Source of the DNA: Hyphomicrobiales bacterium
Lineage (GTDB): Bacteria; Pseudomonadota; Alphaproteobacteria; Rhizobiales; Rhizobiaceae
Direction: 5' to 3'
DNA: 64,000 bases
NCBI GenBank assembly: GCA_900470285.1
Contig: UCAG01000005.1
Coordinates: 1-64,000 of the forward strand
How positions within the stretch are numbered: the first letter of the stretch is position 1; each line of letters starts with the position of its first letter. This document shows positions 1,504-16,330 of the stretch, piece after piece. The notes under the pieces were generated by a model, which worked only from the letters and a program-made list of their open reading frames with translations, did no database searches and was not told where the DNA came from. A program made the position numbers and the translations under genes.

Positions 1504-1521
1504 AATTGCAAGATACGAAAA

Positions 1522-1540
1522 GGGGCGCTCTATGCGCCCC
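1522..1540. terminator. GC-rich hairpin between convergent genes
   Basis: A 7-bp perfect stem (GGGGCGC / GCGCCCC) with a 5-base loop lies in the 40 bases between the tail-spike end and the gtrC-like gene end. It is followed by only a weak T-rich run, so it may act as a modest bidirectional terminator. Confidence 0.5.
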
Positions 1541-1542
1541 AT

Positions 1543-2943
1543 TCATTTCATGCAAACCACAATCATATCGTTGGTTTTTTCAATTCGCCAATAAGATTCA
1601 GGTGGTGTAAGGCAGGTGCCTTCTGGCGCGGAATCAGTGCCTTTGATGAAATCACCGGTCAGAATACGGAAAATTTCCATATTGCTCCAAGTGGTATCGA
1701 AGGCTGACAGCCTGTTTCCGGAACGGATATCATTATGAATCGTAGATGATACTGCAAGTTTTGTACTTGGCGAGATATCACCTGTCGCACGAATTTCATT
1801 AATGATCATTGCAACTGCCAATGCATCACGTTCATCTTGACCTTTCATTACAGCAAAAAACTTGGCCTGATGCGTGATGAGAATTGTAATGAACGCAACT
1901 GCTAAATACGGTGTTATACTGATAACACGTTTTGGTAGATAAGCGCTTACCAGCACTACAGAACCAGCCAGAAAGAATACTGAACCAGACATTTGTCTAG
2001 GACTTGGCCAGAAACCACTTGGGAACAATGAAAACGGGCTTGCTATAATTAGGATGCCGCAGATTAATGCGACTACACCCAAAATCGTAAGTATATTTCG
2101 ATGCTTAGCAAAGTGCCAAAGGAGCATACCCGACATACAAATAATCGCGAAAGTATAAACCAATACCTCGTATCTGGTCGTATATGGCGACATTCCCTTT
2201 AATAACATTGTTGGAATGAAGCGAATATAATGCGGCAGATTTCCAATGATATTGTGAAAGCTTGCATCCCTGCCAGTTTGCAGCGGGAAAGCTTCTTTAA
2301 TGGAAATAAATACCAGTACAGAAATGATAAACGCAATTACCGGAATGAATGCTTCGCGTAACGACATTCTATTATTCGACGTTATTCCCATATGAATTGC
2401 ATACAGGGCTGAGGCAAACAGTAGGATTAAGGCTGTAGGTTGATAGCTTGTTAATGCGATAAATGCCAATATTGTCGCTATCAAATAGCCAATGGTATTT
2501 GGCATTTTTCTACATACTCTTAGGCAGAGAGCAACTGCAGAATATGCCAGGGCATAAATGTTAAATACCATTGAGAATAGGTACATATCTGACATGTACC
2601 CATTTGCTGCTACTATGAAAATAAAAAACGGAACTGTTGAGGCAGGAAAACGGCAGAACCGGGCAAATTCATAAGATGCCCACGCTAATGATAGGCCAAA
2701 TAAAATTACCCATACGTAGATCATATCGTAATAAGGGATGCCTGTTTTAAACAAGACGTAGGCAAATGCAGCTGCCGAATACCGATAATTATCCAGCTGC
2801 CCGACCCACCCCGGGAAGTCACTAAAAAAGATATCGTTGTACATAACGCGGACATTGTCTTGCCCAAGAAAATCAATGTACATGTACATTATCGCCAAAA
2901 CAGAGATTACGCTGGCAAATGTGTGAAGTTTATTGATTTTCAT
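1543..2943 (-). CDS. GtrC-like serotype-converting glucosyltransferase, polytopic membrane protein
   Basis: This 466-residue protein has a long series of hydrophobic segments, as in GtrII/GtrC-type glucosyltransferases, which move a glucosyl residue from undecaprenyl phosphate to O-antigen on the periplasmic face. It is the third gene of a gtrA-gtrB-gtrC-like operon on the minus strand. The ATG at 2943 lies inside the end of gtrB (14-base overlap), pointing to translational coupling; a TTG at 2958 is a weaker alternative. The C-terminal third (after about residue 370) is more hydrophilic. GtrC proteins vary with the linkage they make, so substrate and site cannot be read from sequence. Family assignment rests on context and membrane topology more than on motifs. 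Confidence 0.75.
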   Translation of the reverse strand: MKINKLHTFASVISVLAIMYMYIDFLGQDNVRVMYNDIFFSDFPGWVGQLDNYRYSAAAFAYVLFKTGIPYYDMIYVWVILFGLSLAWASYEFARFCRFPASTVPFFIFIVAANGYMSDMYLFSMVFNIYALAYSAVALCLRVCRKMPNTIGYLIATILAFIALTSYQPTALILLFASALYAIHMGITSNNRMSLREAFIPVIAFIISVLVFISIKEAFPLQTGRDASFHNIIGNLPHYIRFIPTMLLKGMSPYTTRYEVLVYTFAIICMSGMLLWHFAKHRNILTILGVVALICGILIIASPFSLFPSGFWPSPRQMSGSVFFLAGSVVLVSAYLPKRVISITPYLAVAFITILITHQAKFFAVMKGQDERDALAVAMIINEIRATGDISPSTKLAVSSTIHNDIRSGNRLSAFDTTWSNMEIFRILTGDFIKGTDSAPEGTCLTPPESYWRIEKTNDMIVVCMK

Positions 2944-3892
2944 CGCTTGTTTTCTCAATCAAAAATCTAGGTCTTTTTTTAACTTCTAGATAAATTTTGC
3001 CGATATATTCCCCAATAATCCCCAAGCTTAGCAACTGTATGCCGCCGAGGAACAGAATGGGAAGAACTGTGGACGCCCAACCCGGAACAGCATACCCGTA
3101 GAAGAACACCCGAATGACCATTACCCAGATCGCCGCCATAAAAGAGGCTGCGCTCACAATAGCGCCGGTAAAGGTTACGAAGCGAAGTGGCGCAACTGAG
3201 AACGAAGTAATTCCGTTGATAGCCAGTCCAAGCATTTTTTTAAGCGTATACTTGGTTTCCCCAAATTCACGATCTAAGCGCTTGTAGTGGATAATCTTTG
3301 TCGCAAACCCAATTGTAGGAATGACGCCGCGCAGGAACAAGTTTACCTCTTGATGAGCAAGAAGTGCATCCAGTGCGCGTCGAGACATTAAACGGAAGTC
3401 TGCATGATCTTCTATGATGTTGACGCCTAAAGCGCTCATCAATTTATAATATCCTAACGCCGTGGATTTCTTGAAAGCATTGTCATTGCCTCTTGAGGAG
3501 CGAACGCCTAGAGCCAAATGAACGCCTGATTGATATGCCAGAAGCATGTCTTTGATAGCGTTAATATCATCCTGCAGATCAGCATCGATAGTGAGAATAG
3601 CATCAGCGGTTGACATGGTAAGCCCTGCAACCATCGCATTTTGATGCCCATAGTTGCGGCTTAGTTTGATCCCGAGCACCGGCAACTTTGCGCGAAGCTC
3701 CTCAATAATTGACCAAGTGTTATCTCGGCTGCCATCATCGATCAGAATTAGCCGGTAGGATCGTAAATTTAAGGCGTCATCCTTTATACAATCATCCAGA
3801 AATGCAACCAGTCGAGGTATGGTATGAGGAATTGTTTCTTCCTCATGATAACAGGGTATTACGACGTCTAATGTATAAATTTTCTCAGTCAC
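2930..3892 (-). CDS. gtrB: GtrB-like undecaprenyl-phosphate glucosyltransferase
   Basis: A 320-residue GT2-family enzyme that would load glucose from UDP-glucose onto undecaprenyl phosphate at the cytoplasmic face. The N-terminus has VVIPCYHEEETI, followed by LILIDDGSRDNTW and the TIDADLQDD segment holding the DxD-type metal site. Two hydrophobic segments near residues 230-300 match the C-terminal membrane anchor of GtrB/DPM1-like proteins. It starts with GTG at 3892, overlaps the gtrA end by 8 bases and overlaps the start of the gtrC-like gene, so all three are probably co-translated. Length is normal for the family. Confidence 0.9.
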   Translation of the reverse strand: MTEKIYTLDVVIPCYHEEETIPHTIPRLVAFLDDCIKDDALNLRSYRLILIDDGSRDNTWSIIEELRAKLPVLGIKLSRNYGHQNAMVAGLTMSTADAILTIDADLQDDINAIKDMLLAYQSGVHLALGVRSSRGNDNAFKKSTALGYYKLMSALGVNIIEDHADFRLMSRRALDALLAHQEVNLFLRGVIPTIGFATKIIHYKRLDREFGETKYTLKKMLGLAINGITSFSVAPLRFVTFTGAIVSAASFMAAIWVMVIRVFFYGYAVPGWASTVLPILFLGGIQLLSLGIIGEYIGKIYLEVKKRPRFLIEKTSDENQ

Positions 3893-4262
3893 GACCGAAT
3901 ACCCATAGTTTCATAATAATGAAAAAGCTTATGTTATATGTTATCATAGCAATTAATTGCGGTAGCAACGCGTTAATATCTATTAATGCAACTACATAGC
4001 TCAATACAATTAAATTAATCGCATATGATATTATAAACCCGATGATAAATCTTACGGCTTGGCGATTCTCAAACTCTTTATTGAATGTTATTTTGCTATT
4101 CATAATATAGCTGTTCAATAATCCTGCTGCAAAGCCGATTAAATTGCAAGCAAATGGATTTATACCAATATAAGTAAGTGCAGCTATTATTATGAACGTT
4201 ATAAGAGTATTTACAACTCCTATAAGCCCATACTTGGCCAATTGAGCAGATAAGTCAGACAC
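3885..4262 (-). CDS. gtrA: GtrA-family flippase
   Basis: A 125-residue protein with four hydrophobic segments and the GtrA-like opening KYGLIGVVNTLITF. GtrA proteins are thought to flip undecaprenyl-phosphate-linked glucose across the inner membrane. It is the first gene of the minus-strand gtr operon and starts with GTG at 4262, preceded by a G-rich ribosome binding site (GGGGGGAATAA). Its very AT-rich sequence fits a phage-borne cargo operon. Placement between tail-spike and lysis genes agrees with the common position of gtr operons in temperate phages, where they alter O-antigen after lysogenisation. Confidence 0.88.
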   Translation of the reverse strand: MSDLSAQLAKYGLIGVVNTLITFIIIAALTYIGINPFACNLIGFAAGLLNSYIMNSKITFNKEFENRQAVRFIIGFIISYAINLIVLSYVVALIDINALLPQLIAMITYNISFFIIMKLWVFGRD

Positions 4263-4403
4263 TTATTCCCCCCGCGGATTGTCTATAAGTTCAATGAGAT
4301 ATCAGGCTAAAGAAAGCAACTTCTAAATCTCAAATATAAAGCGACTTATTGACCATATATAACCTGTGCTTTGCACCAGTAGCCCATCACCATGGACATT
4401 GCA

Positions 4404-4427
4404 GCCTCGCTCATGCGGGGCTTTTTT
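4404..4427 (+). terminator. Rho-independent terminator upstream of endolysin
   Basis: The stem GCCTCGC / GCGGGGC with loop TCAT is followed by six Ts. It lies just before the endolysin start and would separate it from any upstream plus-strand transcript. Confidence 0.75.
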
Positions 4428-4445
4428 GTATCTAGAGGCCCCCCT

Positions 4446-4994
4446 ATGAAAACCAGTTCTACAGGACGCGCTCTTATTGAAAGGCGCGAAGGAGTTGTGC
4501 TGTCTGCATATCGTGACAGTGCTGGAATTTTAACAATTGGTGTCGGTCACACATCGGCGGCAGGAGAGTCTCGTGTGACGGCTGGCATGACAATCACGGC
4601 ATGGCAGGCATCGGAAATTCTGAGCCGCGATCTGGTAATCTTTGAAGCGGCCGTGAATGCTTCGGTGAGGGTGCCGCTTAATCAGAATGAATTTGATGCA
4701 CTGGTGAGCTTAGCGTTCAATATCGGAGCAGGAGCGTTCAAAGGCTCAACACTACTCAGAAAATTAAATGCAGGCGACCGCAAAGGCGCTGCTGATCAGT
4801 TCCTCGTCTGGAACAAGATCACCGTTAACTGCAAGAAACAGACTGTACGCGGCCTGACCACACGGCGCGAGGCTGAACGCAAGCAGTTCTTGTCACAGAC
4901 AGGAGTGATGCAGCCGCAACCAGATCCGATTAATTCCGGCTGGCTCGTCACTATCATCAAAGCAATCGTCTCCATCTTCAGGAAGGGCAAATGA
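4446..4994 (+). CDS. Phage endolysin, GH24 lysozyme
   Basis: A 182-residue T4-lysozyme-like muramidase that cleaves peptidoglycan glycan strands at the end of the lytic cycle. The family triad is visible with the usual spacing: E15, D24 and T30, in ERREG, AYRDS and LTIGVGHT. The C-terminus has a short hydrophobic stretch (around residues 165-178). I chose the ATG at 4446 because the upstream in-frame ATG at 4392 would run the coding frame through the terminator hairpin. The stop overlaps the next ATG (ATGA at 4991-4994), typical of lysis cassettes. This gene looks intact, unlike most of its neighbours. Confidence 0.9.
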   Translation: MKTSSTGRALIERREGVVLSAYRDSAGILTIGVGHTSAAGESRVTAGMTITAWQASEILSRDLVIFEAAVNASVRVPLNQNEFDALVSLAFNIGAGAFKGSTLLRKLNAGDRKGAADQFLVWNKITVNCKKQTVRGLTTRREAERKQFLSQTGVMQPQPDPINSGWLVTIIKAIVSIFRKGK

Positions 4995-5179
4995 TGGCTC
5001 CGCTCATTCGCATACTGCTGTGCTATGGCGTGGGTGGTTTAATCGGTTGCGAGGTTGGAAGTTAGCTTGCCGCCGATCCTGATGTGCTGGCCGTAACAAC
5101 CGTAGCCGCTACGGCATTTGTCGGCCTTGTCACTGAGGGCTTTTACATTCTCGCTAAACGCTTTGGTTGGCGAACATGA
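4991..5179 (+). pseudogene. Small lysis-cassette membrane protein interrupted by an in-frame TAG
   Basis: The frame starts at the ATG overlapping the endolysin stop and reads MMAPLIRILLCYGVGG, then meets TAG at 5063-5065. It continues without another stop as LAADPDVLAVTTVAATAFVG to TGA at 5177-5179, which overlaps the next ATG. Start and stop both fit the tight ATGA-linked layout, so this was one gene of about 61 codons with two hydrophobic segments, holin-like in position. A single substitution inactivates it unless the amber codon is read through. It is too short and divergent to assign to a named holin family. Confidence 0.65.
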
Positions 5180-5429
5180 AAGTCAGTCTTCAACACATCA
5201 CTGGTGCGGTAATCGGAGGGGCAGTTTCAGGCCTCTTTTTTATGCGCTTGGGGTTCATGACGGCAAACAAGATGCGGCCTTGAAAGCCGCTCAAGCTGTG
5301 ACACAAGCAATCCAGAACAGGGCAGGGATCAATGAAACAATCGACAATTTGGATAGTGTTGCTCTGTGTGTTGAGCTTGGCGTGGTGCGCGACCAGTGTG
5401 AGCAATTGTGCGGGTTGGCGGCAGAATGA
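5176..5429 (+). pseudogene. Rz-like spanin gene with a one-base frameshift
   Basis: From the ATG at 5176 the frame gives MKVSLQHITGAVIGGAVSGL, a membrane anchor, and stops at 5281-5283. In the alternative frame the conserved soluble part follows (LKAAQAVTQAIQNRAG, then LGVVRDQCEQLCGLAAE) to 5429. One base missing in the AACAAGATG stretch near 5270 accounts for the switch. The C-terminal CxELG...DQCEQL pattern is shared by small proteins in many alphaproteobacterial phage lysis cassettes. In the intact state it would be an inner-membrane spanin-like protein. The next gene starts inside it in another frame, the classical Rz/Rz1 arrangement. Confidence 0.65.
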
Positions 5430-5532
5430 TCTATCAGCTGCTGGGCTGGTAGCGTTGACAAAGGTTGACCGGCCAACAGCTGAACGGGTGGAAGGTAATT
5501 ACCAAAATGGGAAACGGCAGGGGTGTTGGTGA
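5332..5532 (+). CDS. Small Rz1-like lysis protein, nested in the Rz-like gene
   Basis: A 66-residue protein with a hydrophobic N-terminus (STIWIVLLCVLSLAWC) and a conserved tail ending in GCW. The cysteines after the hydrophobic segment suggest a signal peptide and possible lipid attachment, though the LAWC sequence is a poor lipobox. It begins 97 bases before the end of the upstream gene in a different frame, the overlap expected for an outer-membrane spanin. Small C-rich proteins with CAGW and GCW signatures recur at this place in Rhizobiales phages. Function is inferred from position. Its stop overlaps the next start (TGATG). Confidence 0.6.
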   Translation: MKQSTIWIVLLCVLSLAWCATSVSNCAGWRQNDLSAAGLVALTKVDRPTAERVEGNYQNGKRQGCW

Positions 5533-5699
5533 TGAGAGATCAGGTTGTTGAACGTGCAACAACGGCTATAGCAACTGGGGCAATGGCAAATCCGCTATGG
5601 CTTCCGCATCTGGAAAAGGCTTTTTCATTAGGGCTTTCAAGCCTAGGTGTTGTGTGGCTTGTGGTGCAAATTGCTCATAAGCTGAAACATTGGAAATAA
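5532..5699 (+). CDS. Holin-like small membrane protein
   Basis: A 55-residue frame with ATG at 5532 overlapping the upstream TGA. It has a short amphipathic N-terminus (MRDQVVERATTAIATGAMAN), a conserved-looking NPLWLPHLE segment, one membrane-spanning stretch (LGLSSLGVVWLVVQIAHKL) and a basic tail. Size, topology and location at the end of a lysis cassette fit a holin or holin accessory protein. The sequence alone does not prove pore formation. Confidence 0.65.
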   Translation: MRDQVVERATTAIATGAMANPLWLPHLEKAFSLGLSSLGVVWLVVQIAHKLKHWK

Positions 5700-5702
5700 C
5701 AT

Positions 5703-5738
5703 AAACCGTATTGCGCTTGAATGATCAGCGCGGTTTTT
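5703..5738 (+). terminator. Probable terminator of the lysis cassette
   Basis: An imperfect hairpin (AAACC...GCGCT / AGCGC...GGTTT) ending in TTTTT follows the last lysis gene by four bases. Confidence 0.55.
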
Positions 5739-6351
5739 GCGTTAGCCAATTTGTATGAATTATTGCGTGAATAGTGTTTTGGCTAACTTTGAAATTGTAT
5801 AGTAAATCAATGTCTAGTGCGCTCCCTCCGGGGGGGGGCACTTAGTACCGTCAGATAAGTTGAATGTTGCATGACTATGCAGTTATGTGATCAGTCGCGG
5901 AAGGGGAGGCAGCCCACCAGACCAAGGCACTAAGATCAGGCCACTGTCAGAAGAGCAATCCAATTGATCGTCTGCCAGCCGGAGCTGTGCAACAGCGGTC
6001 CGCTTGAGAATGAAGCGCAGGTGACCGTTCCGAAAAGGAGGAAGTCATCTGCTCCCTGAACTTTGCTGCGCTCTGTGAGTGTATCAGCTTCTGGAAGCAT
6101 GACATTTTCGTCGATAAAGCACAAATTCCAGCTTAAGCCCAGCAAGATCAAAGATATCCAGAAATGAGCTATGTCACCTCTATACTAGCCTTTTCGTTTG
6201 AACAAGTTGATAAAATTGGGATTTGTCTATCTAAAAAAGTAGAAAATATATTTATTACTTCGAGGAGGGAAGCAGTGCTTCAGCATCGTAGTATTGAATA
6301 ATCCTTGATTGTTATACAGCAGCTGCAAACATTGCGATACCAATATGGATG
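5739..6351. other. Non-coding stretch after the prophage lysis cassette
   Basis: I see no convincing gene here. A run of nine Gs lies at 5830-5838. A 71-codon minus-strand frame (5936-6151) has no recognisable motif. A ribosome-binding-like GAGGAGGGA at 6262-6270 precedes only an eight-codon frame. This may be a degraded prophage end; no attachment repeat could be identified. Confidence 0.4.
5830..5838. repeat. Poly-G tract (nine Gs)
   Basis: A run of nine Gs directly follows CTCCCTCC, which can pair with it. It lies in non-coding DNA, so no phase-variable frame is attached to it. It may be a length-variable or assembly-sensitive site. Confidence 0.8.
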
Positions 6352-6379
6352 AAGCCCCGTGGAAGCGGGGCTTTTTTTA
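6352..6379 (+). terminator. Strong Rho-independent terminator
   Basis: The stem AAGCCCCG / CGGGGCTT with a six-base loop is followed by a T run. No intact plus-strand gene precedes it within 600 bases, so it probably belonged to a lost gene and now insulates the polysaccharide locus. Confidence 0.8.
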
Positions 6380-6713
6380 TTAATGGTCAAATGACATATC
6401 GATGCGATGAGGCATCTTGAAGGTACTAAGTTCCTTAACACGCATGAAGAAAATTAGGCGATATGAGGTTCTGCTGCTAAATGCTGAATATGATGGAATT
6501 TTTCTTCCGGTGCGAATTCTTACAGTTGTTTATTGCGGTTAAAACCTGAACCTAATGCGTAGTGTGTTTTATGACGGCTATAGCTGACACATTTGTTACT
6601 AATTTTCTTGTTATATGATTCTTATCTTTATAAGTAAATTTGCAATTTGCTAAGGCATGTGTGTAGGCTGATGCTTTATCGCTAATTTATTTTAAATCTG
6701 AAAGGCTAAGTAA
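6380..6713. other. Promoter-containing AT-rich leader of the polysaccharide locus
   Basis: This AT-rich stretch has no coding frame that I can support. It must contain the promoter for the two plus-strand genes that follow, but no JUMPstart-like element or clear -35/-10 pair stands out. Confidence 0.35.
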
Positions 6714-8726
6714 GTGACAGATTCAATGTCGTCTGTGAGGTATTGGCAAGAAAAAAAGGGGGCAGACTATCGCGCCCAACAAGACGGACGGCGGCAACAT
6801 GGGAATGATCAATATGCCATACAGGAAAAATGGCTTGAGGATTATCTAAGCTCCAGATCTGAATTTTTGGGGCGTCCTCTAAAGATACTTGATTTTGGTT
6901 GTGGTTTTGGCCGATTTACGCGCTTACTCGCTGGAAAAGATTTTATTAAATATTACGGTTATGATTTTTCTCATGCGATGGCTGAGGAATTATTTTCAAC
7001 TCCGCCTGCAGATTTACACCCGATAGAAGACCGAATTCGAATAGCATCTGCTATAGATGAGGCTTTTCCTGACGATAAATTTGATCTTATTTTTACAGTC
7101 TCGGTGTTAATTCATAATCCTCCCGAGCAGGCACGTAATTTGGTTCTGAAAATGGCTGAACATCTGACCAGTGATGGGCAGATAGTTTTGATTGAAAATC
7201 CGCTTTCAGCTTTGAGTGCAAGGCAAAATTCTTGGCATTCAGGTTGCTGGACGCACGATGTTGCTGGAACTTTAGCCCCGGAATTTAATCTCCGATATTA
7301 TCCCGATATTGCCTCCAATCATTGTTTTTATGTTTTGACACAAGCCACGCAGCAAACGCGCATTATACAAAAAGTAGATGCGCAGGGCCGTGAGCAAGCT
7401 GTAACACTTAACCAGATTTTGATTGAAGGGCTTCCGCTTTTGGAAGCTGGTTTAAAAGGAGTGGAGCAGGAGCTTGAGCTTAGCTCCGATGCTGTTGGTA
7501 CAATGCACGATCTCGCTGAAAATAGTAATTATATGAAAAAAAGAATAAGTGATCTTGAAGCGAAAATTGAAATTCTTGAGAAAGATAATATAGTTCTTTC
7601 CGATACCCTCAAGCTTAGGGCTGAGCTCCGCAAAGCAATGTTGTCTGTGGCGGAGCCGGAAAAAAAAGACAGTTCATCTGTACAAAATCACAAGTCAGAT
7701 GCGGAAAAATATCCAGACGGCTTCTATTGCTGGAATGCTCCACAGGATCAGATTTTTGCGCATAAAGATAATCGCTTTGTAAGTGTTGCTCACTTGTTTC
7801 ATCGTGAATGGAAGGGGATAAGAGCAGCTGCAGGAACTCTCCCGGGGAACAAAATCGCTATTAGTGCTCATAAGAAACCTAATAGTCGGGATATTAGTGA
7901 TCTTTTACAAGATATTCGAGAGAATGGTGTTGAGCGTATTATCCTTCATGGCATGTCAGATGCTATGGAGGTTCTTGCTCATGCGCTTTCAAAACAAGGC
8001 ATTAAACTCTGTCTTGTCTGGCATGGTACAATAACACAGTGGCAGTTTCCGGAAGAGCGCCGCATCGCGATTAAGGCTATCAATCTATATAAACGAGGGA
8101 TAATACAGCGTTTCTCAGCAATTCGCCGTGGTTTTGATGATGTTATCGGCGGATCAGATTTTACCGCGCAATTAGTCAATGCTGTGCCTAATTATCCTGG
8201 CGAGCAGAGATTGCCTATAATTAAGGACGCCTCTAAAAAACAGGCTCTTGCTCCTTCTTGGAATGATATTAGAAAAAATCTTTATGCTAATGTTCTTGCC
8301 GTTGAGCCAATTAACGAAATAGACAAAGTGTTTGTTTTTGCAAAGGATTTGTCACTGCCGAAATCATTGACTGATAAAGTTTCAATTATTGAATATGCAG
8401 GACCTCTTCAGCTTCCGAAGATTTTGAATAATGTTGATATTGTTCTTAATGTAACAGTTATTGACTGTCATCCGATGGTTAATCTTGAGGCGCTTGCATG
8501 TAATGTTCCATGTTTGAGCGGGCCTTTGTTTCTTGATGTTTTAGAAGACCATGAATACTCAAATTTAACAGTGGTACAAAATCCACTTAGTGTTTCCGAC
8601 ATAACGAATAGCATACGGAACGTCTTTAATACTCCTTACAATGCGATGTCTGAAATTATTCAGGACTATAAGAATTCGCTCAATAGAGTGGCAATTGACC
8701 GTTATGCTGAGTTTGTTGGAGTTTAA
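6714..8726 (+). CDS. Methyltransferase / coiled-coil / glycosyltransferase fusion protein
   Basis: This 670-residue protein has three parts. Residues about 45-225 form a class I SAM-dependent methyltransferase (ILDFGCGFGRFTRLL is the SAM-binding loop, with FDLIFTVSVLIHN downstream). Residues about 255-310 are charged and coiled-coil-like. The remainder looks like a GT-B-type domain: VWHGTITQW near residue 438 and CHPMVNLEALACNVPC near residue 590 correspond to motifs in the C-terminal half of the 745-residue protein encoded at 10988-13225. A methyltransferase joined to a coiled coil recalls WbdD-type chain terminators that set O-antigen length, but no kinase domain is seen. It starts with GTG at 6714 behind AAAGG; ATG at 6726 is an alternative. 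The next gene begins three bases after its stop. Confidence 0.75.
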   Translation: MTDSMSSVRYWQEKKGADYRAQQDGRRQHGNDQYAIQEKWLEDYLSSRSEFLGRPLKILDFGCGFGRFTRLLAGKDFIKYYGYDFSHAMAEELFSTPPADLHPIEDRIRIASAIDEAFPDDKFDLIFTVSVLIHNPPEQARNLVLKMAEHLTSDGQIVLIENPLSALSARQNSWHSGCWTHDVAGTLAPEFNLRYYPDIASNHCFYVLTQATQQTRIIQKVDAQGREQAVTLNQILIEGLPLLEAGLKGVEQELELSSDAVGTMHDLAENSNYMKKRISDLEAKIEILEKDNIVLSDTLKLRAELRKAMLSVAEPEKKDSSSVQNHKSDAEKYPDGFYCWNAPQDQIFAHKDNRFVSVAHLFHREWKGIRAAAGTLPGNKIAISAHKKPNSRDISDLLQDIRENGVERIILHGMSDAMEVLAHALSKQGIKLCLVWHGTITQWQFPEERRIAIKAINLYKRGIIQRFSAIRRGFDDVIGGSDFTAQLVNAVPNYPGEQRLPIIKDASKKQALAPSWNDIRKNLYANVLAVEPINEIDKVFVFAKDLSLPKSLTDKVSIIEYAGPLQLPKILNNVDIVLNVTVIDCHPMVNLEALACNVPCLSGPLFLDVLEDHEYSNLTVVQNPLSVSDITNSIRNVFNTPYNAMSEIIQDYKNSLNRVAIDRYAEFVGV

Positions 8727-8729
8727 TTT

Positions 8730-10934
8730 ATGAAAGTGTTCGTAACAACTGAACTGTATCCGTTTACTGCAGGTGGTATAGGTCGAGTTATATCTAATAT
8801 ATTGAATTCAAAACAAAATAAAAATGATAATGATTTTTTAGTTGTGATGGTCGGACGTAAAATTGATGCCGGTCAATTTTCTGCAATTTATCCTAATGTG
8901 CAGCTCGCTCAATGCTTAGATAAAAATTATTCTCTTCTTTCAACTGAAAGAGATGCGTTATTCCCACCTCAATGGGCGTTCTCTAATACTTCTTTTCATC
9001 ATACTTCTGTTGCGTTGTTACAGACACTGCTTTCTGCAGAAGAAGAATATGGAAAATTTGATTACATCGAGTTTCCCGATTGGGGAGGTTTGGGTTTTGC
9101 AACGATTCAGCACAAACTATTAGGAACGGGTTTTCAGGAGACGACGCTCGCTATTCGCTTGCACTCTACAGAGCGTTCGATCGCTGCGTATGAAACACGA
9201 CCTATATTAAATAATACTCTATGTTTGTTTGATATAGAGCGAAAAGCAATCGCAGACGCAGATATTGTGATTGGGCAACTAAAACCCGTAGCAGATAGTA
9301 CACGTAACGTTTTTGGAATATCTTCAGAGATTTGGGATGAAAAATTAGTTATACATGCACCTCCAGTGCTCTTAGATAGTGCTGCTTGTGTAGAAACTAT
9401 AAGAGTAAATGAAAATACTCCTATTGTTTTCTCGTCAAAAATACAAAAAATTAAAAGGCCTGATATATTTATTCGTGGATGTGTTGGGTTTATTAGAAAC
9501 AACCCTGAATACAAAGGTGAGATTCATCTTCTTGCTAATTCATCAGATCATGAGTATACTTCAAGTATTGAGAAGTTAATTCCGTCGGATCTTGCTAACA
9601 GATTTGTTTTTTATAAAACAACAGCTGCGGGGTTGCGGGATAAAATTATTTCACAATCAATATGTGTATTTCCAGGTGGCTGGGAGTCATTTTGCCTTGC
9701 TGCGTATGAAGCATCACTCCTTGGCGCTCAATGCATTTTAAACGAGAAGAATCCTGCTTTTGGTGAGAATACACCATGGGAGGATGGGGTTAATTGTGTT
9801 AAATTTGATGAAAGTGTTATCGGCCTGACCGAGGCATTGTCACGACTATTTCGTGAACGTGATGCAGTTACACAAATTGTAAAAGTTCCGGAGGATACCC
9901 AGCCTTGGGATATGAAGCATAAACCAGCTTCAAAGGTCGAGAAGGGACGCGATGATACGCTTCAAGACAAAGTCAGTATTATCATTCCCCATTATAATCT
10001 CGGACAATATTTAGCCTCAACAATTGATAGTGTACTAGCCAGCACTTATCCGAATTTGGAGATTGTTGTTGTTGATGATGCCTCAACGGATGCATGGTCA
10101 AAACACATAATTGACCAATATTCGAGGAATGAGAGCGATCTGATTAAGATAATTCGTTGTGATTATAACATAGGTTTATCGGCGGTTCGAAATTTGGCAC
10201 TGAAGCATTGCACTGGCGAATATATTCTACCTCTGGATGCAGATGATATTATTCATCCGAATTTCATAGAGCTTGCTGTGCAGGCATTAAAGCGATCGCC
10301 GGACTTTGATTATGTTGTACCGCAAACGGCTTTTTTTGCTGATCATGAGGAAATAAATCTGGAGCATAAAGAAAAATATACTGATTATGCAATTTTCCAT
10401 GGCGATGCCTATTATTCGGGCTTGTTTGAAAACCGTTTTTCAACGGCAACAATGTTGATAAGAGCTGAAACATTGAAGCGCTTTGGCTATCGGGAGGAGC
10501 TGAAATCATACGAGGATTGGGATTTGTATCAGCGTATGATTGCTGCAGGCATCAGAAGTATTGTTACGAATAATATTTATTTTTATTACCGCAGACGGCC
10601 GTCCTCAATGATACATAGTCCTGAAGCTATTAAAAATCAGGCGCAAAATCGCCGTGCTTTGCTATCAGGGAAAAGCTTCAAGGATTATGGTGATATTCCG
10701 CTAATGGCTTTAAATTACGAAACCAATAAGCACAAAGCTGCAGGTGATATCCAGTCATTATCTGCGTCGGATGCTGCGAGATTGCATGATTTTGAAAGCA
10801 GTGAAGTGGTTTTTGCGGCGCTTCGGATGGCAAAATTTCTTGAAAGAAAAGCCCCATGGTTATTGCCGCTAGGTAGAAATACAGCCCGTACGCTTTGGCG
10901 CAGCTATAAAGCAATAGCTCGCAGAGGACGTTGA
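8730..10934 (+). CDS. Bifunctional glycosyltransferase, GT4-like plus GT2
   Basis: A 734-residue protein with two catalytic modules. Residues 1-400 are GT4/GT-B-like, opening with ELYPFTAGGIGRVI and ending with the donor-site pattern GGWESFCLAAYEASLLGAQ. Residues about 412-640 are a GT2 (GT-A) domain: VSIIIPHYNLGQYLAS, VVVDDASTD and PLDADD, the last being the metal-binding DxD. Such fused enzymes build repeat units of surface polysaccharides in the cytoplasm. It follows the methyltransferase fusion gene by three bases with its own GGAG ribosome binding site, so the two are co-transcribed. Sugar specificity cannot be told from the sequence. Confidence 0.85.
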   Translation: MKVFVTTELYPFTAGGIGRVISNILNSKQNKNDNDFLVVMVGRKIDAGQFSAIYPNVQLAQCLDKNYSLLSTERDALFPPQWAFSNTSFHHTSVALLQTLLSAEEEYGKFDYIEFPDWGGLGFATIQHKLLGTGFQETTLAIRLHSTERSIAAYETRPILNNTLCLFDIERKAIADADIVIGQLKPVADSTRNVFGISSEIWDEKLVIHAPPVLLDSAACVETIRVNENTPIVFSSKIQKIKRPDIFIRGCVGFIRNNPEYKGEIHLLANSSDHEYTSSIEKLIPSDLANRFVFYKTTAAGLRDKIISQSICVFPGGWESFCLAAYEASLLGAQCILNEKNPAFGENTPWEDGVNCVKFDESVIGLTEALSRLFRERDAVTQIVKVPEDTQPWDMKHKPASKVEKGRDDTLQDKVSIIIPHYNLGQYLASTIDSVLASTYPNLEIVVVDDASTDAWSKHIIDQYSRNESDLIKIIRCDYNIGLSAVRNLALKHCTGEYILPLDADDIIHPNFIELAVQALKRSPDFDYVVPQTAFFADHEEINLEHKEKYTDYAIFHGDAYYSGLFENRFSTATMLIRAETLKRFGYREELKSYEDWDLYQRMIAAGIRSIVTNNIYFYYRRRPSSMIHSPEAIKNQAQNRRALLSGKSFKDYGDIPLMALNYETNKHKAAGDIQSLSASDAARLHDFESSEVVFAALRMAKFLERKAPWLLPLGRNTARTLWRSYKAIARRGR

Positions 10935-10946
10935 TTTAAAAAATAT

Positions 10947-10981
10947 TATGGGGTGTAGCGTATTAAAAGCTATACCCCATA
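10947..10981. terminator. Bidirectional hairpin between convergent glycosyltransferase genes
   Basis: A 13-bp stem (TATGGGGTGTAGC with GCTATACCCCATA, one G-U wobble) and a nine-base loop sits between the converging operons. It lacks a long T tract but is flanked by A/T-rich sequence. Confidence 0.6.
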
Positions 10982-10987
10982 CTAAAG

Positions 10988-13225
10988 TTATTGCATGATA
11001 CTTTTATATAAATCTTCAATTTTATTATTGTATAAAATATTATATTTCTCTTTTTTCATTTTTAATATATCAATAATCTCATTCATATTCTCAACAACAA
11101 GGTCAAATCTGTCTGCAATAGCATTCGGATCATCAACATGTTGTTCTATAAGATAGTGTGCTAACTTTTTGTCGACTTGCGAGTAAATATCGCCAGCCGG
11201 CCCGACAATGCATGGTATGTTTAATGCCCAGCTTTCGAGCGCTGTCATTGGCGAACATTCTGTATTTGTTACGTACAAATTTATGTCCTGTTGCTCCAGC
11301 AACCGGATAAAATCATGTCGGGGCATGTGGTTGAAAAAATGAGTATCGGATAATTTGAGATTGAGTTCAGCTACAATATTTTTATCGATATTCGTATTTA
11401 GAACCACATTTTTTCCGGCAAGCGCCAGCAGTTGTACATAAGGGTTTTTTTGCCATGAACTAATTGCGGAGAAAAGACCAACATTTAACGGGGTGCCGGA
11501 GATTATCTTTTTCCTGCTGTTGTTCACCAGATTAGGTAAAGGATTGTAAATATCGTAGGATATTATTCCTAATTTACTTAATATGTTATGCAAATCTTGT
11601 TTAACGGTAATGAAGCCATTGATAATACTTTCATTATATGCACGTTTCCATTGTAAAAAATGATTGTACTGCTCGGGATCGATCCATTGAGACGGGGAGC
11701 CGTGCCACATAAAATATTGCTTTATATCCGGGTTAAGTTCGCGGATTTTTTTTGCTAAAGTAATATGTATTGCAGAGCCACCACTATAAATAATCGGTTG
11801 CTTTTCTAATGATGCGAGCTTCTCAGCAATAGAACCTAAATATTTGTGTTTTTGGGCTTCTGGATATTCTGTATCATAAAAAGGAAATCTAATCGCATTT
11901 TTGTTAAATATTGCCTCGGTTGAAGCTGCAACACCTTTCCACATAGGGGAGTAAACGGCAATTGGCTTGTTCTTATCAGATTGATTAAAAAACGTATTAT
12001 AAATCTGATCTGCTTGATCATAGTTTGCTTTGCTTAAGCCGTTTCCATGCAGGATTCTATGGTAAGTAGATGCAAACACTGGGGAGATTTTCCGGAGTGT
12101 TGGAACAAGGCCAGCTTTTTGAGCGAGGCGTGCGCCGGTTCTCACGCTTGAGATTGCGATACGTTTGCTGAGCGTGCTTTTTGTTTCCTGTAATAGATTT
12201 TTCTTTCTGCTTTGCCCGTCTTTTTTGTGTTTTTGATGTGCTGCATTAAAGAACCGAACCCATTGAGCGGGGATGGTGCCTTCAGGGCCAAAATATTTTA
12301 GATAGCTTTGATAGTTTTCATCTTTGCACTGCTTGAGCAATTTTCCATTTGTAATCAATCTTTCCAGGGCATTGTAAAATGCCTGATGGGATCGATCACA
12401 TAGAAAATCCTGTTGTATTTCTGATAAAATCTCCGTCGCAATGCCGGTGCGAGTGCTCACAATTGCGCAATGACGTGATATTGCTTCAATCAAAGTTAAG
12501 GGAGTTCCTTCTTTTTCTGAGGCAATTAAAAGTATATCTGCATTTTCAAGCGTTTCTAAGATTACTTCATTTGATGTTTTTTCTTTTGATGAATCAAAGG
12601 AGATGTACTTTATATTTTTATGCTTATCTCTCAATTGCTCTATCGCAGGAGTAATAATATTTTTTACTCCTTTATAGTCAATGTAACCTGCATATTCCCC
12701 CCATTGAGAATTTCCCGACCAGACAATGGTTATAGTTTCAGGCGTTGTGCTGGTCTTATTTTGTTTGATGAGAGGAATGCTGGGATTGTCGTATATAACA
12801 TCTGTTGGGTGAGGGATAAGAAAGTTTGACGAATATAATTCGAACAAATCATTGTTTATTGTGAAATAGGCATCACAAAAATTAAATAATGTATGTCTGT
12901 CTCTGAGAGAGTTTTCATCGGCATACAAATAGTCTGGAATATGTGTTGTAATCGTTTTATCACATAAAATTTCAATATTTTTATTTGATTTATCAGTCGT
13001 ATTAATCAAAACATTTAAGTGTTCCCGGAAGAAAAAATGAATTAATTCTGATTTGCTATTGCCGATAGCATCTAATAATTCAGATGGCTTGTTGTAATCT
13101 TCCCAATAAAGAATGTTTAGATCTGCGTATTGGCCTAATGTGCTCTGAATAGATTTTGCGATATTGTCAAACGCCCAGCCGCGGATATCGACTACGAGTG
13201 TAATTTTATTGATGTCTAGTGACAT
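10988..13225 (-). CDS. Two-domain glycosyltransferase with WHG...QW-containing C-terminal module
   Basis: A protein of about 745 residues with two GT-B-like halves. The first half ends in a GT4 donor-site pattern (ADILLIASEKEGTPLTLIEA, near residues 235-255). The second half, from about residue 425, contains YFMWHGSPSQW near residue 505 and CSPMTALESWALNIPC near residue 660, which match motifs in the methyltransferase fusion protein at 6714-8726. ATG at 13225 has AGGA about ten bases upstream; TTG at 13264 would add 13 residues. It is encoded downstream of the ABC exporter genes on the same strand, so a role in making the exported polysaccharide is likely. The acceptor and donor sugars are unknown. 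Confidence 0.75.
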   Translation of the reverse strand: MSLDINKITLVVDIRGWAFDNIAKSIQSTLGQYADLNILYWEDYNKPSELLDAIGNSKSELIHFFFREHLNVLINTTDKSNKNIEILCDKTITTHIPDYLYADENSLRDRHTLFNFCDAYFTINNDLFELYSSNFLIPHPTDVIYDNPSIPLIKQNKTSTTPETITIVWSGNSQWGEYAGYIDYKGVKNIITPAIEQLRDKHKNIKYISFDSSKEKTSNEVILETLENADILLIASEKEGTPLTLIEAISRHCAIVSTRTGIATEILSEIQQDFLCDRSHQAFYNALERLITNGKLLKQCKDENYQSYLKYFGPEGTIPAQWVRFFNAAHQKHKKDGQSRKKNLLQETKSTLSKRIAISSVRTGARLAQKAGLVPTLRKISPVFASTYHRILHGNGLSKANYDQADQIYNTFFNQSDKNKPIAVYSPMWKGVAASTEAIFNKNAIRFPFYDTEYPEAQKHKYLGSIAEKLASLEKQPIIYSGGSAIHITLAKKIRELNPDIKQYFMWHGSPSQWIDPEQYNHFLQWKRAYNESIINGFITVKQDLHNILSKLGIISYDIYNPLPNLVNNSRKKIISGTPLNVGLFSAISSWQKNPYVQLLALAGKNVVLNTNIDKNIVAELNLKLSDTHFFNHMPRHDFIRLLEQQDINLYVTNTECSPMTALESWALNIPCIVGPAGDIYSQVDKKLAHYLIEQHVDDPNAIADRFDLVVENMNEIIDILKMKKEKYNILYNNKIEDLYKSIMQ

Positions 13226-13276
13226 AGAAATGTATTCCTGATGTGCGGCTAACCTGATTGACAATAAAATTATGCC

Positions 13277-14023
13277 TCAATGTGTTCCAGAGTAGAGGGC
13301 CAGGCCCTCATGAACGTCTCCGTAGAAGCGAATTGAGCCGGCATCCAGCCATATGACTTTGTTGCACATCTCAGCAATTAAGGGATTTGCATGCGATGCT
13401 AAGAACACAATACTGGCTTTTTCGTGCAAGCTCTTCATGCGAAGATTTGCTTTCTCGATGAAGGCTGCATCACCAACACCTATGACTTCATCCAGCAGTA
13501 GAATATCTGCCTCGACTGCTGTTGAAATAGCGAAAGCCAGGCGGATTTTCATTCCTGATGAATAGGTACGAATTGGCAGGTGAAGATAATCGCCCAGATC
13601 CGTGAATTCTGCAATTTCGGGAGTTTTGGCAAGAATTTCATCGGGGGACATTCCTAACAAGGTGCCGCGCATTTTTATATTTTGGTATCCGGTCATGGTA
13701 TCGTCCATGCCTAATCCCATTTCAAGTAAAGGGACTGCTTTACCGTTTACTTCAAGCTCGCCAACAGATGGTTCATAAATGCCCGCAAGAACCCTTAGAA
13801 GTGTGGATTTTCCAGCGCCATTGCTGCCGATTAATCCAATTCTATCGCCTTTATGTGCTTCAAAATTTAAATTTTGAAGCGCTTTAATGACTGTAATGCC
13901 TGAATTGCTGGAGGCAATTCGTGTTGATGCAAGCTTGTTAATGACACGCATTTTCATTGAGCGTCCGGAGACCTCATAGATTGGCATCTCAACTGATAGA
14001 TTCTTCGCTTTTACATAAGACAT
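13277..14023 (-). CDS. Polysaccharide ABC exporter ATPase (Wzt/KpsT-like)
   Basis: A 248-residue ATPase energising export of a lipid-linked polysaccharide across the inner membrane. Walker A is GSNGAGKST, the signature is YSSGMKIRLAF, and Walker B is ILLLDEVIGVGD, followed by SHANPLIAEMC with the switch histidine. The DEVIGVGD form is characteristic of the O-antigen and teichoic acid exporter subfamily. ATG at 14023 gives normal length and leaves eight bases to the permease gene. It lacks the C-terminal carbohydrate-binding domain of longer Wzt proteins, so substrate recognition by a terminal cap is not expected from this subunit. Confidence 0.92.
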   Translation of the reverse strand: MSYVKAKNLSVEMPIYEVSGRSMKMRVINKLASTRIASSNSGITVIKALQNLNFEAHKGDRIGLIGSNGAGKSTLLRVLAGIYEPSVGELEVNGKAVPLLEMGLGMDDTMTGYQNIKMRGTLLGMSPDEILAKTPEIAEFTDLGDYLHLPIRTYSSGMKIRLAFAISTAVEADILLLDEVIGVGDAAFIEKANLRMKSLHEKASIVFLASHANPLIAEMCNKVIWLDAGSIRFYGDVHEGLALYSGTH

Positions 14024-14031
14024 GGTATTTC

Positions 14032-14820
14032 CTAAACCCAATAAGGAATGCGTGCACGATAGCGGCCATGGAACCAGATGCTGATTGCGGATCCTATTAC
14101 GGCCATAGCTATGCAAACTAACCAGCTCAGCATTGGGGCAGTTTCACCTAGTAAGGGAGAACGGACAATTTCGATTAAATGTGCAAACGGGTTCAGATCA
14201 ATCAGAAGAGGAAATTTGCTTAGCATTTCTCTTTTGAAGAGAATTGGTGTGATATAAAAAATGACCTGCAGAAAACTTACAACTATTTGCGGTAAATCTC
14301 TAAATCTGGCGCACAATATTGATAATATTGTTATCATCCATAATAAATTTATGCAAAGGATAATAAATCCTGCAATAAAAAAATGCAGATGATTTATAAC
14401 GTTGTATTGAAATATAATAAGAACTACTAAAACAATTACAAAATTGTGTGCAAGTATTATTATATTTCTATATAATGTTTGAAGGACAAAAACACCTCTG
14501 TTGAGAGGTATTTGTTTCAAGTAATTTCCAGATGCAATATATGTATTGCATCCTTCATTGATGGAATTTGATATAAAAGTCCAAAAAACGTAACCAATTG
14601 CCAGCATAGGCAAATATTCGCTTAATTTTGCTTCAAACAGCGTTCCATAGACTATGCCCAGAGCTGTTACCAAAATCCCCATGCTAAGCGTTAGCCAAAA
14701 GGGGCCGATTTTTGATCTCGCATAGCGCTGGCGAATTTCCACCCACGCTAACATTAGCCACAAGTGATATTGTTTTGTGCTGCTGAGTAGGTCTTTATAC
14801 CCGCAGATAAAATTATTCAT
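14032..14820 (-). CDS. Polysaccharide ABC exporter permease (Wzm/KpsM-like)
   Basis: A 262-residue ABC-2-type membrane protein with six hydrophobic segments. The N-terminal stretch WVEIRQRYARSKIGPFW is the amphipathic element typical of Wzm/RfbD/KpsM proteins, and FYITPILF occurs in the second half. It pairs with the ATPase encoded eight bases downstream to move an O-antigen-, capsule- or teichoic-acid-like polymer out of the cytoplasm. The 149-base gap behind it probably holds the promoter for the minus-strand genes down to 10988. Confidence 0.92.
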   Translation of the reverse strand: MNNFICGYKDLLSSTKQYHLWLMLAWVEIRQRYARSKIGPFWLTLSMGILVTALGIVYGTLFEAKLSEYLPMLAIGYVFWTFISNSINEGCNTYIASGNYLKQIPLNRGVFVLQTLYRNIIILAHNFVIVLVVLIIFQYNVINHLHFFIAGFIILCINLLWMITILSILCARFRDLPQIVVSFLQVIFYITPILFKREMLSKFPLLIDLNPFAHLIEIVRSPLLGETAPMLSWLVCIAMAVIGSAISIWFHGRYRARIPYWV

Positions 14821-14969
14821 TCGTCATCTCATCTAAATCTCAGACCCAATAATAGGCGTAGGTTTTAGTCATAAGCTATTTGTTTTTTTCTGCGTATCAA
14901 ATTTTGTGACTGCCATACTTCATCCATGTGGTAGATTTTTCAATGAGATATGATCCGTTATGGTCAGGT

Positions 14970-15863
14970 TTATGCATTTGTGCGCAGTTTTCTATATGCA
15001 ATTCCCAAAACTTTGCGTGGTAAGATACGAATAACAAGCCGTCCGATCAGATTGATATAAAGTGCCGGGAGAGGGATAACTTTATATTTTCGAAAACCGC
15101 TCACAGCTTTCGCTTCACGTGATATATAATTCCATCCGGAGCGACGCTCCAGAAGACCATTTCCGATACGGGCTAGCACCAATACTTTATCCATATTCCT
15201 GCATTGATAATCTGAAGCGATTAATCGCAGCCATAAATCATAATCTTCAAAGCCCGGTAAGTGTTTATAATTGCCAGCCGTTATAATCGCATCTTTATGA
15301 TACATAACCGTCATATGATTAAACGGAGTTCTGAACCAAGAAGCCCGTACTATCTCTTCATGCGTTGTTTTGATTTTGCGTATGCCTAATGGTTTATCAG
15401 GGTCGTTATCAAACTCCGCTATATGCCCGCCGACTATGGCAACTTCTGGATTGTTTATTAAGAAATCATATTGTTCGGAAAAGCGTGTAGGAAGAGCAAT
15501 GTCATCTGTATCCATGCGGGCAATTATCGGTGACTTACACTGCAGCAGTCCTTGCCTTAACGCAGGACCGAGACCAACATTTTGAGGGATTTTAACAGAT
15601 ACAATATTTAACTGATCTCTAAATTGCTCAATGAGTTCCCGGTGCGCATCCGAGATTGGTCCATCCTCAACCAGGATAACCTCATCGGCCTTCAAGGTTT
15701 GCCGAGCGAGGCTGTCAAGTGCGCTTCTGAGATGTTCTACATTATCGCGCTCATAAGTAGACATCAGTACAGATAGGCTTTTGTCATTTGAGGTCATTAT
15801 CGGCGCTTGATCCCTATATGGTACTTTGACCTGTTTTAATAACGCGGGTTTCTGAGCAAACAA
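14970..15863 (-). CDS. GT2-family glycosyltransferase
   Basis: A GT-A fold enzyme of about 297 residues with SVLMSTYERDNVEHLRSALD at the start of the catalytic domain, VILVEDG, and ARMDTDD holding the DxD metal site. HLPGFEDYDLWLRL matches the ED-y-dLW motif of rhamnosyl- and galactosyl-type GT2 enzymes. A TTG start at 15863 has AAGGAG five bases upstream; GTG at 15869 overlaps that site and ATG at 15797 lacks one. It is the first gene of the minus-strand polysaccharide group and is separated from the permease gene by 149 bases. Confidence 0.8.
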   Translation of the reverse strand: MFAQKPALLKQVKVPYRDQAPIMTSNDKSLSVLMSTYERDNVEHLRSALDSLARQTLKADEVILVEDGPISDAHRELIEQFRDQLNIVSVKIPQNVGLGPALRQGLLQCKSPIIARMDTDDIALPTRFSEQYDFLINNPEVAIVGGHIAEFDNDPDKPLGIRKIKTTHEEIVRASWFRTPFNHMTVMYHKDAIITAGNYKHLPGFEDYDLWLRLIASDYQCRNMDKVLVLARIGNGLLERRSGWNYISREAKAVSGFRKYKVIPLPALYINLIGRLVIRILPRKVLGIAYRKLRTNA

Positions 15864-15869
15864 ACTCAC

Positions 15870-15994
15870 TCCTTATAACGGCGTGAGATACAAAACCAAT
15901 ACCACTGACAGATCGGTACTGATTTTTGCTTTTTTAAACTGGCTATGAAGTAAGGGGTGGGAATGTAATATCTCTTATAATCCAAGGGTATAAA
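15870..15994. other. Intergenic sequence between polysaccharide locus and integrase remnant
   Basis: No gene is seen. It should contain the promoter of the minus-strand GT2 gene, but no clear motif is recognisable. Confidence 0.3.
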
Positions 15995-16330
15995 TTATAG
16001 GGAGGGGAACTTAGCAGCTTGAATATATCGTATATTGGGATAACGGGCGAGGCATCCCACTGCCACGCTTTGGCAGTTTAAGCAGCTGAAATAGCTTATT
16101 TGTTTTTCATTTTTTATCGCGCACTCCTCCTCTGAATTTGGGTGTGGCGAAATGCTGCCCAAACCTCTCCAGTCAATCTTCGTAACCGTTTGTCTTGCCA
16201 GTTTCGAGTGTTGGGCGCTTCTGATATAGATTTTGGACGTTTTGCTGTCCTTCCATCCGAACATTCCTTCAAGCATCAGATCTGTAGCTTCATTTTCAGT
16301 AATGTTTGTTGCCAGTCCTCACCGATACGT
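15995..16330 (-). pseudogene. C-terminal remnant of a phage tyrosine integrase
   Basis: Reading the minus strand from about 16330 gives a degraded Y-R-stop-GLATNITENEAT segment, then MFGWKDSKTSKIYIRSA and KLARQTVTKIDW, ending at 15995. This matches the last part of Rhizobiales phage integrases, where R-x-GLAT is the region of the conserved box II arginine, GWKDxKTxxIYxRxA carries the nucleophilic tyrosine, and a K/R-rich tail follows. An in-frame TGA sits just after the arginine, and nothing upstream is recognisable as the rest of the gene. It shows that a phage or island integrated here in the past. The nearby Met at 16276 is probably not a real start. Confidence 0.7.

Follow-up and report, generated by a model that had tools for sequence, protein, structure and literature searches.

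We analysed a stretch of 64,000 nucleotides from a Hyphomicrobiales bacterium (GenBank assembly GCA_900470285.1, contig UCAG01000005.1, positions 1 to 64,000 of the forward strand; hereafter the window), in which two genes, P0001 and P0002, encode proteins that differ in their N-terminal halves and share a C-terminal module resembling the glycosyltransferases (GTs) of family GT4. Both genes are intact open frames and lie where the original prediction had placed them, P0001 at 6714-8726 on the + strand and P0002 at 13225-10988 on the − strand. The 745 residues of P0002 are counted from an ATG; a TTG further upstream would give 758. Directly upstream of P0002 are wzt- and wzm-like transporter genes (13277-14820). 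The features of the locus are as follows.

6714-8726, + strand: P0001, 670 amino acids; S-adenosylmethionine (SAM) methyltransferase (about residues 43-180), possible coiled coil and C-terminal GT4-like module.
7497-7601, + strand: residues 262-296 of P0001, a heptad stretch resembling a coiled coil, weakly indicated by a shuffle test.
7707-8723, + strand: GT4-like module of P0001, residues 332-670, with conserved H437, N489, K521, D584 and E592.
8730-10934, + strand: partner gene, 734 amino acids; N-terminal GT4-like domain (about 1-407) and GT2 domain (about 416-627; PF00535, 2e-31).
10988-13225, − strand: P0002, 745 amino acids; WerR-type double glycosyltransferase with a GT4 domain (about 1-345) and the GT4-like module (412-745).
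10991-11992, − strand: GT4-like module of P0002, residues 412-745, with conserved H508, N561, K593, E656 and E664.
13277-14026, − strand: wzt-like ABC transporter ATPase (NCBIfam galactan export ATPase, 1.6e-83, 279.7 bits, below the cut-off of 400).
14032-14820, − strand: wzm-like ABC transporter permease (NCBIfam galactan export permease, 1.8e-74, 250.7 bits, below the cut-off of 380).
14970-15869, − strand: GT2 glycosyltransferase (PF00535, 2.9e-21), first gene of a GT2-wzm-wzt-WerR block.

The original prediction rested on two motifs said to recur in both enzymes about 150 residues apart, and we found them letter for letter: WHGTITQW at residue 436 and DCHPM at 584 of P0001 (148 residues), and WHGSPSQW at 507 and ECSPM at 656 of P0002 (149 residues). 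The N-terminal halves differ, as had also been noted. That of P0001 matches methyltransferase profiles (Pfam Methyltransf_23, 4e-12, residues 43-175), whereas that of P0002 matches a group-1 glycosyltransferase profile (PF00534, 9e-21). When the whole proteins were compared by BLASTP, residues 366-604 of P0001 aligned with 429-676 of P0002 at 26% identity over 257 columns (E 4e-16), and all other alignments had E values of 1.1 or worse. This alignment extends past the motifs; therefore, the likeness is that of a whole domain and not of two short motifs. The C-terminal ∼335 residues of P0001 and P0002 are homologous.

Relatives were collected by scanning the genome contigs of 84,980 species with a nine-residue pattern derived from five modules. 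The scan gave 36 stretches, 35 of which were confirmed as loci, and by their record titles the hosts are alpha-, beta- and gammaproteobacteria and myxobacteria. We observed several architectures among the 35 loci. The module stands alone or behind a short N-terminal extension in 15, is fused to a GT2 domain in eight (L019, L021, L022, L029, L030, L031, L038 and L046), to a methyltransferase in six (L018, L020, L024, L025, L026 and L042) and to a GT4 domain, as in WerR, in five (L013-L017); the remaining one (L047) is cut by a contig end. The N-terminal domain was confirmed by Pfam in all six fused proteins scanned (L018, L020, L024, L042, L019 and L031). As one nine-residue pattern was used, this range is a lower bound. 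A diverged copy in the Chelatococcus asaccharovorans genome of L042 (L063, 3361-4965, − strand; 534 amino acids in a 541-residue frame, E 1.5e-37) has WHS instead of WHG and ECLPM instead of EC[SHQ]PM, so the family is wider than the pattern; this gene lies near one that by eye encodes a GT2 and a GT4 domain in a single protein.

The module is rare. With at most five candidates scored per genome, full-length matches were found in the window's genome only among 385 genomes of the class, where one other genome had a partial match. Among 398 genomes of the phylum, the full-length matches were again the window's own two, and four other genomes had partial ones (38 to 117 profile positions). A phage origin of the module was considered and rejected: P0001 and P0002 matched nothing in 50,697 phage records, and none of 15 pattern stretches in IMG/VR was confirmed.

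The relation between the two modules was further examined with profiles and a tree. The WerR-type profile, representing the clade of P0002, was built from all seven of its modules, and the P0001-type profile from 24 of 31, close relatives being omitted. Profile-profile comparison, a check that had been proposed along with the original prediction, linked the two with a probability of 99.9 and E 6e-34 over 304 columns. When the modules were compared with the ordinary GT4 domain found in WerR-type proteins (profile from six of seven rows), they aligned only in part: 190 columns in one comparison (probability 91, E 1.2e-6) and 75 in the other (probability 72, E 3.3e-5). Therefore, the modules can be told apart as a separate group within the GT4-like enzymes.

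The tree comprised 38 modules, namely those of 34 pattern-scan loci, the window's two, L008 and L005; the fragment L047 was omitted. It was rooted at the midpoint only, and four WerR-type rows (P0002, L008, L015 and L017) have an unusual letter make-up, which the tree model does not take into account. P0002 and the six other WerR-type rows were separated from all remaining modules by a branch with support 100/100. The P0001 module grouped with L042, L005 and L039 (support 96/86), and that of P0002 was nearest to L013 and L014, at about 50% identity. A recent duplication within the locus is thus unsupported, and the 100/100 branch between the two modules indicates that two long-separated subfamilies met in one locus. 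The earlier notion of a module reused in one pathway therefore stands as far as both enzymes carry it, but not in the duplication that it implied.

AlphaFold2 models of the modules, built with 36-row alignments, reached a predicted local distance difference test (pLDDT) of 92.1 and a predicted template modelling score (pTM) of 0.90 for P0001, and 91.2 and 0.89 for P0002. The top Foldseek match of both was BshA. When Foldseek's 1000 best were re-ranked by VIA-align, BshA again came first, as 6d9t for P0001 (Z 23.1, root mean square deviation 3.4, 302 residues aligned) and as 6n1x for P0002 (Z 23.8, 3.3, 313 residues). HepE, PimA and sucrose-phosphate synthase followed within one Z unit, the top matches having Z of 22-24 over about 300 residues. 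Further down, the lists were filled by other GT-B enzymes, such as glycogen and trehalose-phosphate synthases and the T4 alpha-glucosyltransferase; UDP-N-acetylglucosamine 2-epimerases stood high in the Foldseek list for P0001. BshA is the closest structure, yet it shares just 12-15% identity with the modules and, according to the entry titles, makes the small molecule N-acetylglucosamine-malate, unlike the polymer role presumed here. Both models are GT-B folds closest to GT4 enzymes, in agreement with the GT-B-like module proposed originally.

The same prediction had offered a glycerophosphotransferase as another possibility, suggested by the W-H-G motif; W-H-G-T is known from CDP-glycerol glycerophosphotransferases. 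The best profile match among PDB sequences is indeed a capsule polymerase of TagF type, Cps3D (8qoy). However, this match spans just residues 1042-1082 of 1149 (E 0.0013), at EGQPMVLLES, which resembles the E-x7-E of GT4 enzymes. Across the 38 modules, matches were to three Pfam families in all (E ≤ 0.01), none of them a CDP-glycerol transferase family, and the top folds of both modules are GT4 enzymes, although the absence of TagF from the fold lists proves nothing alone. Hence this part of the original prediction was not sustained, and we consider a TagF-type transferase highly improbable.

The modules also have conserved residues that resemble those of an active site. The H, K and E-x7-E pair are donor contacts in GT4 enzymes, and the H, N, K, C, P, M, L and E columns are invariant in all 38 rows. 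For C-P-M-L-E this invariance is partly built in, because the search pattern was made from that motif; H, N and K were not imposed by it. The second Glu of E-x7-E is present in 38 of 38 rows. The first position, where the pattern favours E, is E in 36 rows, among them P0002 (E656 and E664), and Asp in the other two, P0001 (D584 with E592) and L042, which is a conservative change. This Asp could mean that the GT-B domain has lost catalysis or is purely structural, serving to hold the partner enzyme or to bind the chain. The fold matches include GtfA and the GtfA/B complex, in which a GT works with a helper subunit, and these would suit such a role. On the other side, H, N, K and the second Glu never vary, the first position is always E or D, and WerR, which carries the same module, is described as appearing to have two catalytic sites (PMC13168486). 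We therefore regard a dead domain as improbable.

The Pfam profiles for glycosyl transferases group 1 see the modules weakly: PF13692 in 23 and PF00534 in 19 of the 38 (E ≤ 0.01), with a best E of 1.4e-8. The P0001 module scores 21.2 bits against PF00534, where the curated cut-off is 26.4. Whole P0002 exceeds this cut-off (74.5 bits), its best stretch being in the N-terminal GT4 domain. These weak matches, and the fact that WerR of Escherichia coli O101 was the sole named close relative that we met, agree with the earlier description of the module as poorly characterised; in open-licence literature we found no description of it as a family. As judged from the models, the shared module is a GT4-type GT-B domain, a distinctive branch of a known enzyme family and not a new kind of machine. 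It is presumably a retaining glycosyltransferase; its catalytic activity and donors are likewise presumed.

The closest known system is that of E. coli O101. On the E. coli plasmid pAL.H8 (L008) the gene order is galE, a 738-residue glycosyltransferase (WP_001048111), wzm, wzt, two glycosyltransferases, a methyltransferase and a last glycosyltransferase, and the transporter genes are named after the O89/O101/O162 family. By position, we take WP_001048111 to be WerR and the last glycosyltransferase to be WerT. P0002 is 39.2% identical to WP_001048111 over 99% of its length, with GT4 domain and module co-linear and wzm/wzt adjoining in both. The order differs, being GT2-wzm-wzt-WerR in the window and galE-werR-wzm-wzt on the plasmid; the former block is also present in L013 and in L014, a locus of Candidimonas nitroreducens. 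The wzm and wzt genes are in reach in four of the five WerR-type loci. Judged by sequence, P0002 is the counterpart of WerR, an enzyme almost unstudied in E. coli. A WerR-type gene is present in 316 of 5,426 complete E. coli genomes, with at least 80% of the gene in 311.

As described in a 2026 study of O101/O162 (PMC13168486), WerR and WerT have two apparent catalytic sites each. The repeat of PS1 has two alpha-linked sugars and that of PS2 one beta- and one alpha-linked sugar, and breaking the methyltransferase gene abolishes both PS2 and the single O-methyl group. The study leaves open the division of labour among the four glycosyltransferases (PMC13168486). Two apparent catalytic sites and two alpha-linked sugars in PS1 fit with two retaining domains. 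The two retaining domains of WerR would then make the two alpha bonds of PS1, and the GT2 and GT4 domains of WerT might make the beta and alpha bonds of PS2.

We also made some observations on the WerR-type loci themselves. The plasmid pAL.H8 is of IncY type and has insertion sequences on both sides of the O89/O101/O162 cluster, and among complete E. coli genomes its WerR gene matches 317 places, of which two lie on plasmids. In Paenalcaligenes (L013, 6739-9086) the WerR gene is read as two overlapping frames of 89 and 708 amino acids, which indicates either a frameshift or an error in the sequence close to the gene start. By eye, this locus has an initiating transferase, GT2, wzm, wzt and WerR, followed by an asparaginase-like gene, and it may be a very small O-antigen locus. 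In L015 (10503-11441) a 312-residue protein adjoins wzt and, by eye, begins with a coiled coil and continues as a methyltransferase of FkbM type; it may be a chain terminator of another form.

P0001-type modules are accompanied by a different enzyme. A homologue of the 734-residue partner is the neighbouring gene in 28 of 30 P0001-type loci, directly downstream in 27 and directly upstream in one (L045); of the two loci without it, L033 has just 146 bases of downstream flank. The part common to the partner homologues is the N-terminal 367-635 residues. This domain matched group-1 Pfam families in 14 of 18 members (E ≤ 0.01), the window's own member giving no such match, and it yielded no profile alignment to the module. 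The partner profile was found in one of the 385 genomes of the class, the window's own. We take the module to belong to surface-polysaccharide loci, many of which have ABC exporter genes nearby. In the window's genome, a search with the window's Wzm matched only itself.

Taken together, these data suggest that the module is one of two retaining transferases that alternate in building a polymer, fused to a GT4 domain in P0002 and split from its partner in P0001, where a methyltransferase would cap the chain. We assign this reading a probability of roughly 0.55. The module and the second retaining transferase would act in turn on a growing lipid-linked chain. In P0002, the N-terminal GT4 domain and the C-terminal module would polymerise a disaccharide repeat with two alpha linkages, to be exported by the neighbouring Wzm/Wzt, as inferred for WerR and O101 PS1. 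For chain growth, the P0001 module would act together with the GT4-GT2 enzyme encoded by the following gene, and the methyltransferase of P0001 would cap the chain end and so limit the chain length, with a probable short coiled coil as the ruler.

The capping step is suggested by the layout of P0001, which is shared by the six methyltransferase-module loci, four of them Pfam-scanned. About 150 residues lie between its methyltransferase and its module. A heptad test with 200 shuffles was run on nine of the 35 loci and five other proteins; the score of the 35-residue stretch in P0001 was reached by one of the 200 shuffles, and that of the E. coli O101 methyltransferase, MT, by two. According to the O101/O162 study (PMC13168486), MT has an N-terminal methyltransferase and a C-terminal coiled coil, and the O-methyl group depends on it. 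P0001 and MT thus have a methyltransferase followed by a heptad stretch in common, whereas MT has no GT module and its methyltransferase domain is only a distant relative of that of P0001, at 27% over 85 columns (E 2e-5). WbdD was one of many methyltransferases to which the methyltransferase of P0001 gave a match, though a weak one (E 0.002-0.004). Pfam found neither a kinase nor a carbohydrate-binding module in P0001 (E ≤ 1), and a methyltransferase-kinase of WbdD type was rejected for want of a kinase match; therefore, the chain would be capped with methyl, like that of O101, and not with methyl phosphate.

Another likeness is to ORF6 of Klebsiella pneumoniae O7, which, in the O4/O7 account (PMC11231755), consists of a methyltransferase-kinase, a coiled coil and two GT2 modules. 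From these descriptions, both proteins have an N-terminal methyltransferase and a C-terminal GT with a coil between (weak in P0001), but P0001 has no kinase match and a GT4-like module replaces the GT2 modules. In all cases that the account describes, the terminator is at the distal end of the coiled coil, and polymerising modules may follow the coil, in O7 within one protein (PMC11231755). P0001 appears to have the domain order of such chain-terminator proteins, although the evidence for its coiled coil is weak.

The same account describes in O4 a chain-terminating glycosyltransferase, with the terminator on a coiled-coil protein (PMC11231755). The P0001 module might likewise be the terminator itself, adding a special end sugar that the fused methyltransferase methylates, while P0002 alone polymerises; in none of the five WerR-type loci does a P0001-type gene accompany the WerR-type gene, as judged from flanks of about 8 kb. 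However, the C-terminal modules of O7 are polymerases (PMC11231755), and the P0001 module is also C-terminal. In addition, the module is stand-alone or fused to GT2, without a fused methyltransferase, in 23 of 35 loci, and the second GT that regularly accompanies it is more suggestive of a pair of polymerases. We therefore consider a terminator module unlikely, though less so than a dead domain, and retain the alternating pair as the preferred explanation.

Myxococcus xanthus has the methyltransferase-module gene together with wzm- and wzt-like genes (L024). Its O-antigen repeat is reportedly made of 6-linked alpha-glucose and 4-linked alpha-N-acetylgalactosamine and carries a methyl group. 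Such a repeat would be similar to O101 PS1 and would argue strongly for a link with the module, but we do not use it as evidence. This O-antigen is made via a Wzm/Wzt pathway (PMC7484181), and L024 is probably the known rfbABC locus; searches aimed at these M. xanthus genes returned no result.

Several observations weigh against the alternating pair with a capping methyltransferase. The P0001 module has Asp in place of the first Glu of E-x7-E. In L039 the partner is truly absent within 7.8 kb. The N-terminal domain of the partner failed to align with the GT4 domain of P0002/WerR in profile comparison (probability 0.2); therefore, fused and split pairs share the module but not demonstrably a common partner. 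Both wzm and wzt were within about 8 kb in seven of the 30 P0001-type loci, an ATPase-like gene alone in seven and neither in 16, counts that are limited by several contigs ending early. The heptad test was not significant in L018, L020, L024 and L042 (score reached by 150, 33, 105 and 35 of 200 shuffles, respectively), and it also flagged module helices in the stand-alone proteins L023 (one of 200) and L036 (two of 200). The GT2-fused and stand-alone forms carry no methyltransferase, and hence capping cannot be the general role of the module. Finally, another contig of the window's genome, C16, encodes a WerT-like protein (47%) and an O101-type MT (36%); therefore, the polymer of P0002 may have a terminator of its own, and P0001 may serve another polymer.

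The surroundings of these C16 genes were also examined. The WerT-like gene (674 amino acids) and the MT gene (357 amino acids) are located at 1914-5008 on the − strand of C16 (within L055, positions 1-16000), flanked by phage tail matches at 13246-14925 and 1061-1795, with a large gene that by eye is autotransporter-like at 5701-9210. Together they may be a pair that modifies the O-antigen and is carried by a prophage. An origin of the two genes themselves from phages was not supported, with short, low-identity matches only (four and two phage records), and of two pattern stretches for them in IMG/VR none was confirmed. At the contig edge of the window, directly beside the polysaccharide locus, the region 28-5000 contains gtrB- and gtrA-like O-antigen conversion genes and an endolysin. 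It is likely the end of a prophage; weak matches below the cut-off were to GtrII (1543-2958) and to a pectate-lyase-like tailspike (28-1185).

More speculatively, the module and a GT4-like partner could form an unnamed, portable two-enzyme polymerase core that occurs both fused (P0002 and WerR) and split (P0001 and the next gene; GT2-module or stand-alone module and partner), with a capping methyltransferase added in some lines. The genome would then have two such polymerases behind one exporter, and the WerT/MT pair among phage tail genes would add a second methyl-capped block, acting as a phage-carried switch of the O-antigen end. We think this wider scheme doubtful as a whole.

WerR is probably the PS1 polymerase of E. 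coli O101/O162, and these results provide its C-terminal half with a sequence signature, a fold and a predicted role. They predict two retaining active sites in WerR, and a role of the same module, next to a partner of GT4-like type, in the making of other polysaccharides in bacteria ranging from Rhizobiales to myxobacteria. The assignment of the O101 assembly enzymes would thereby become testable with purified proteins.

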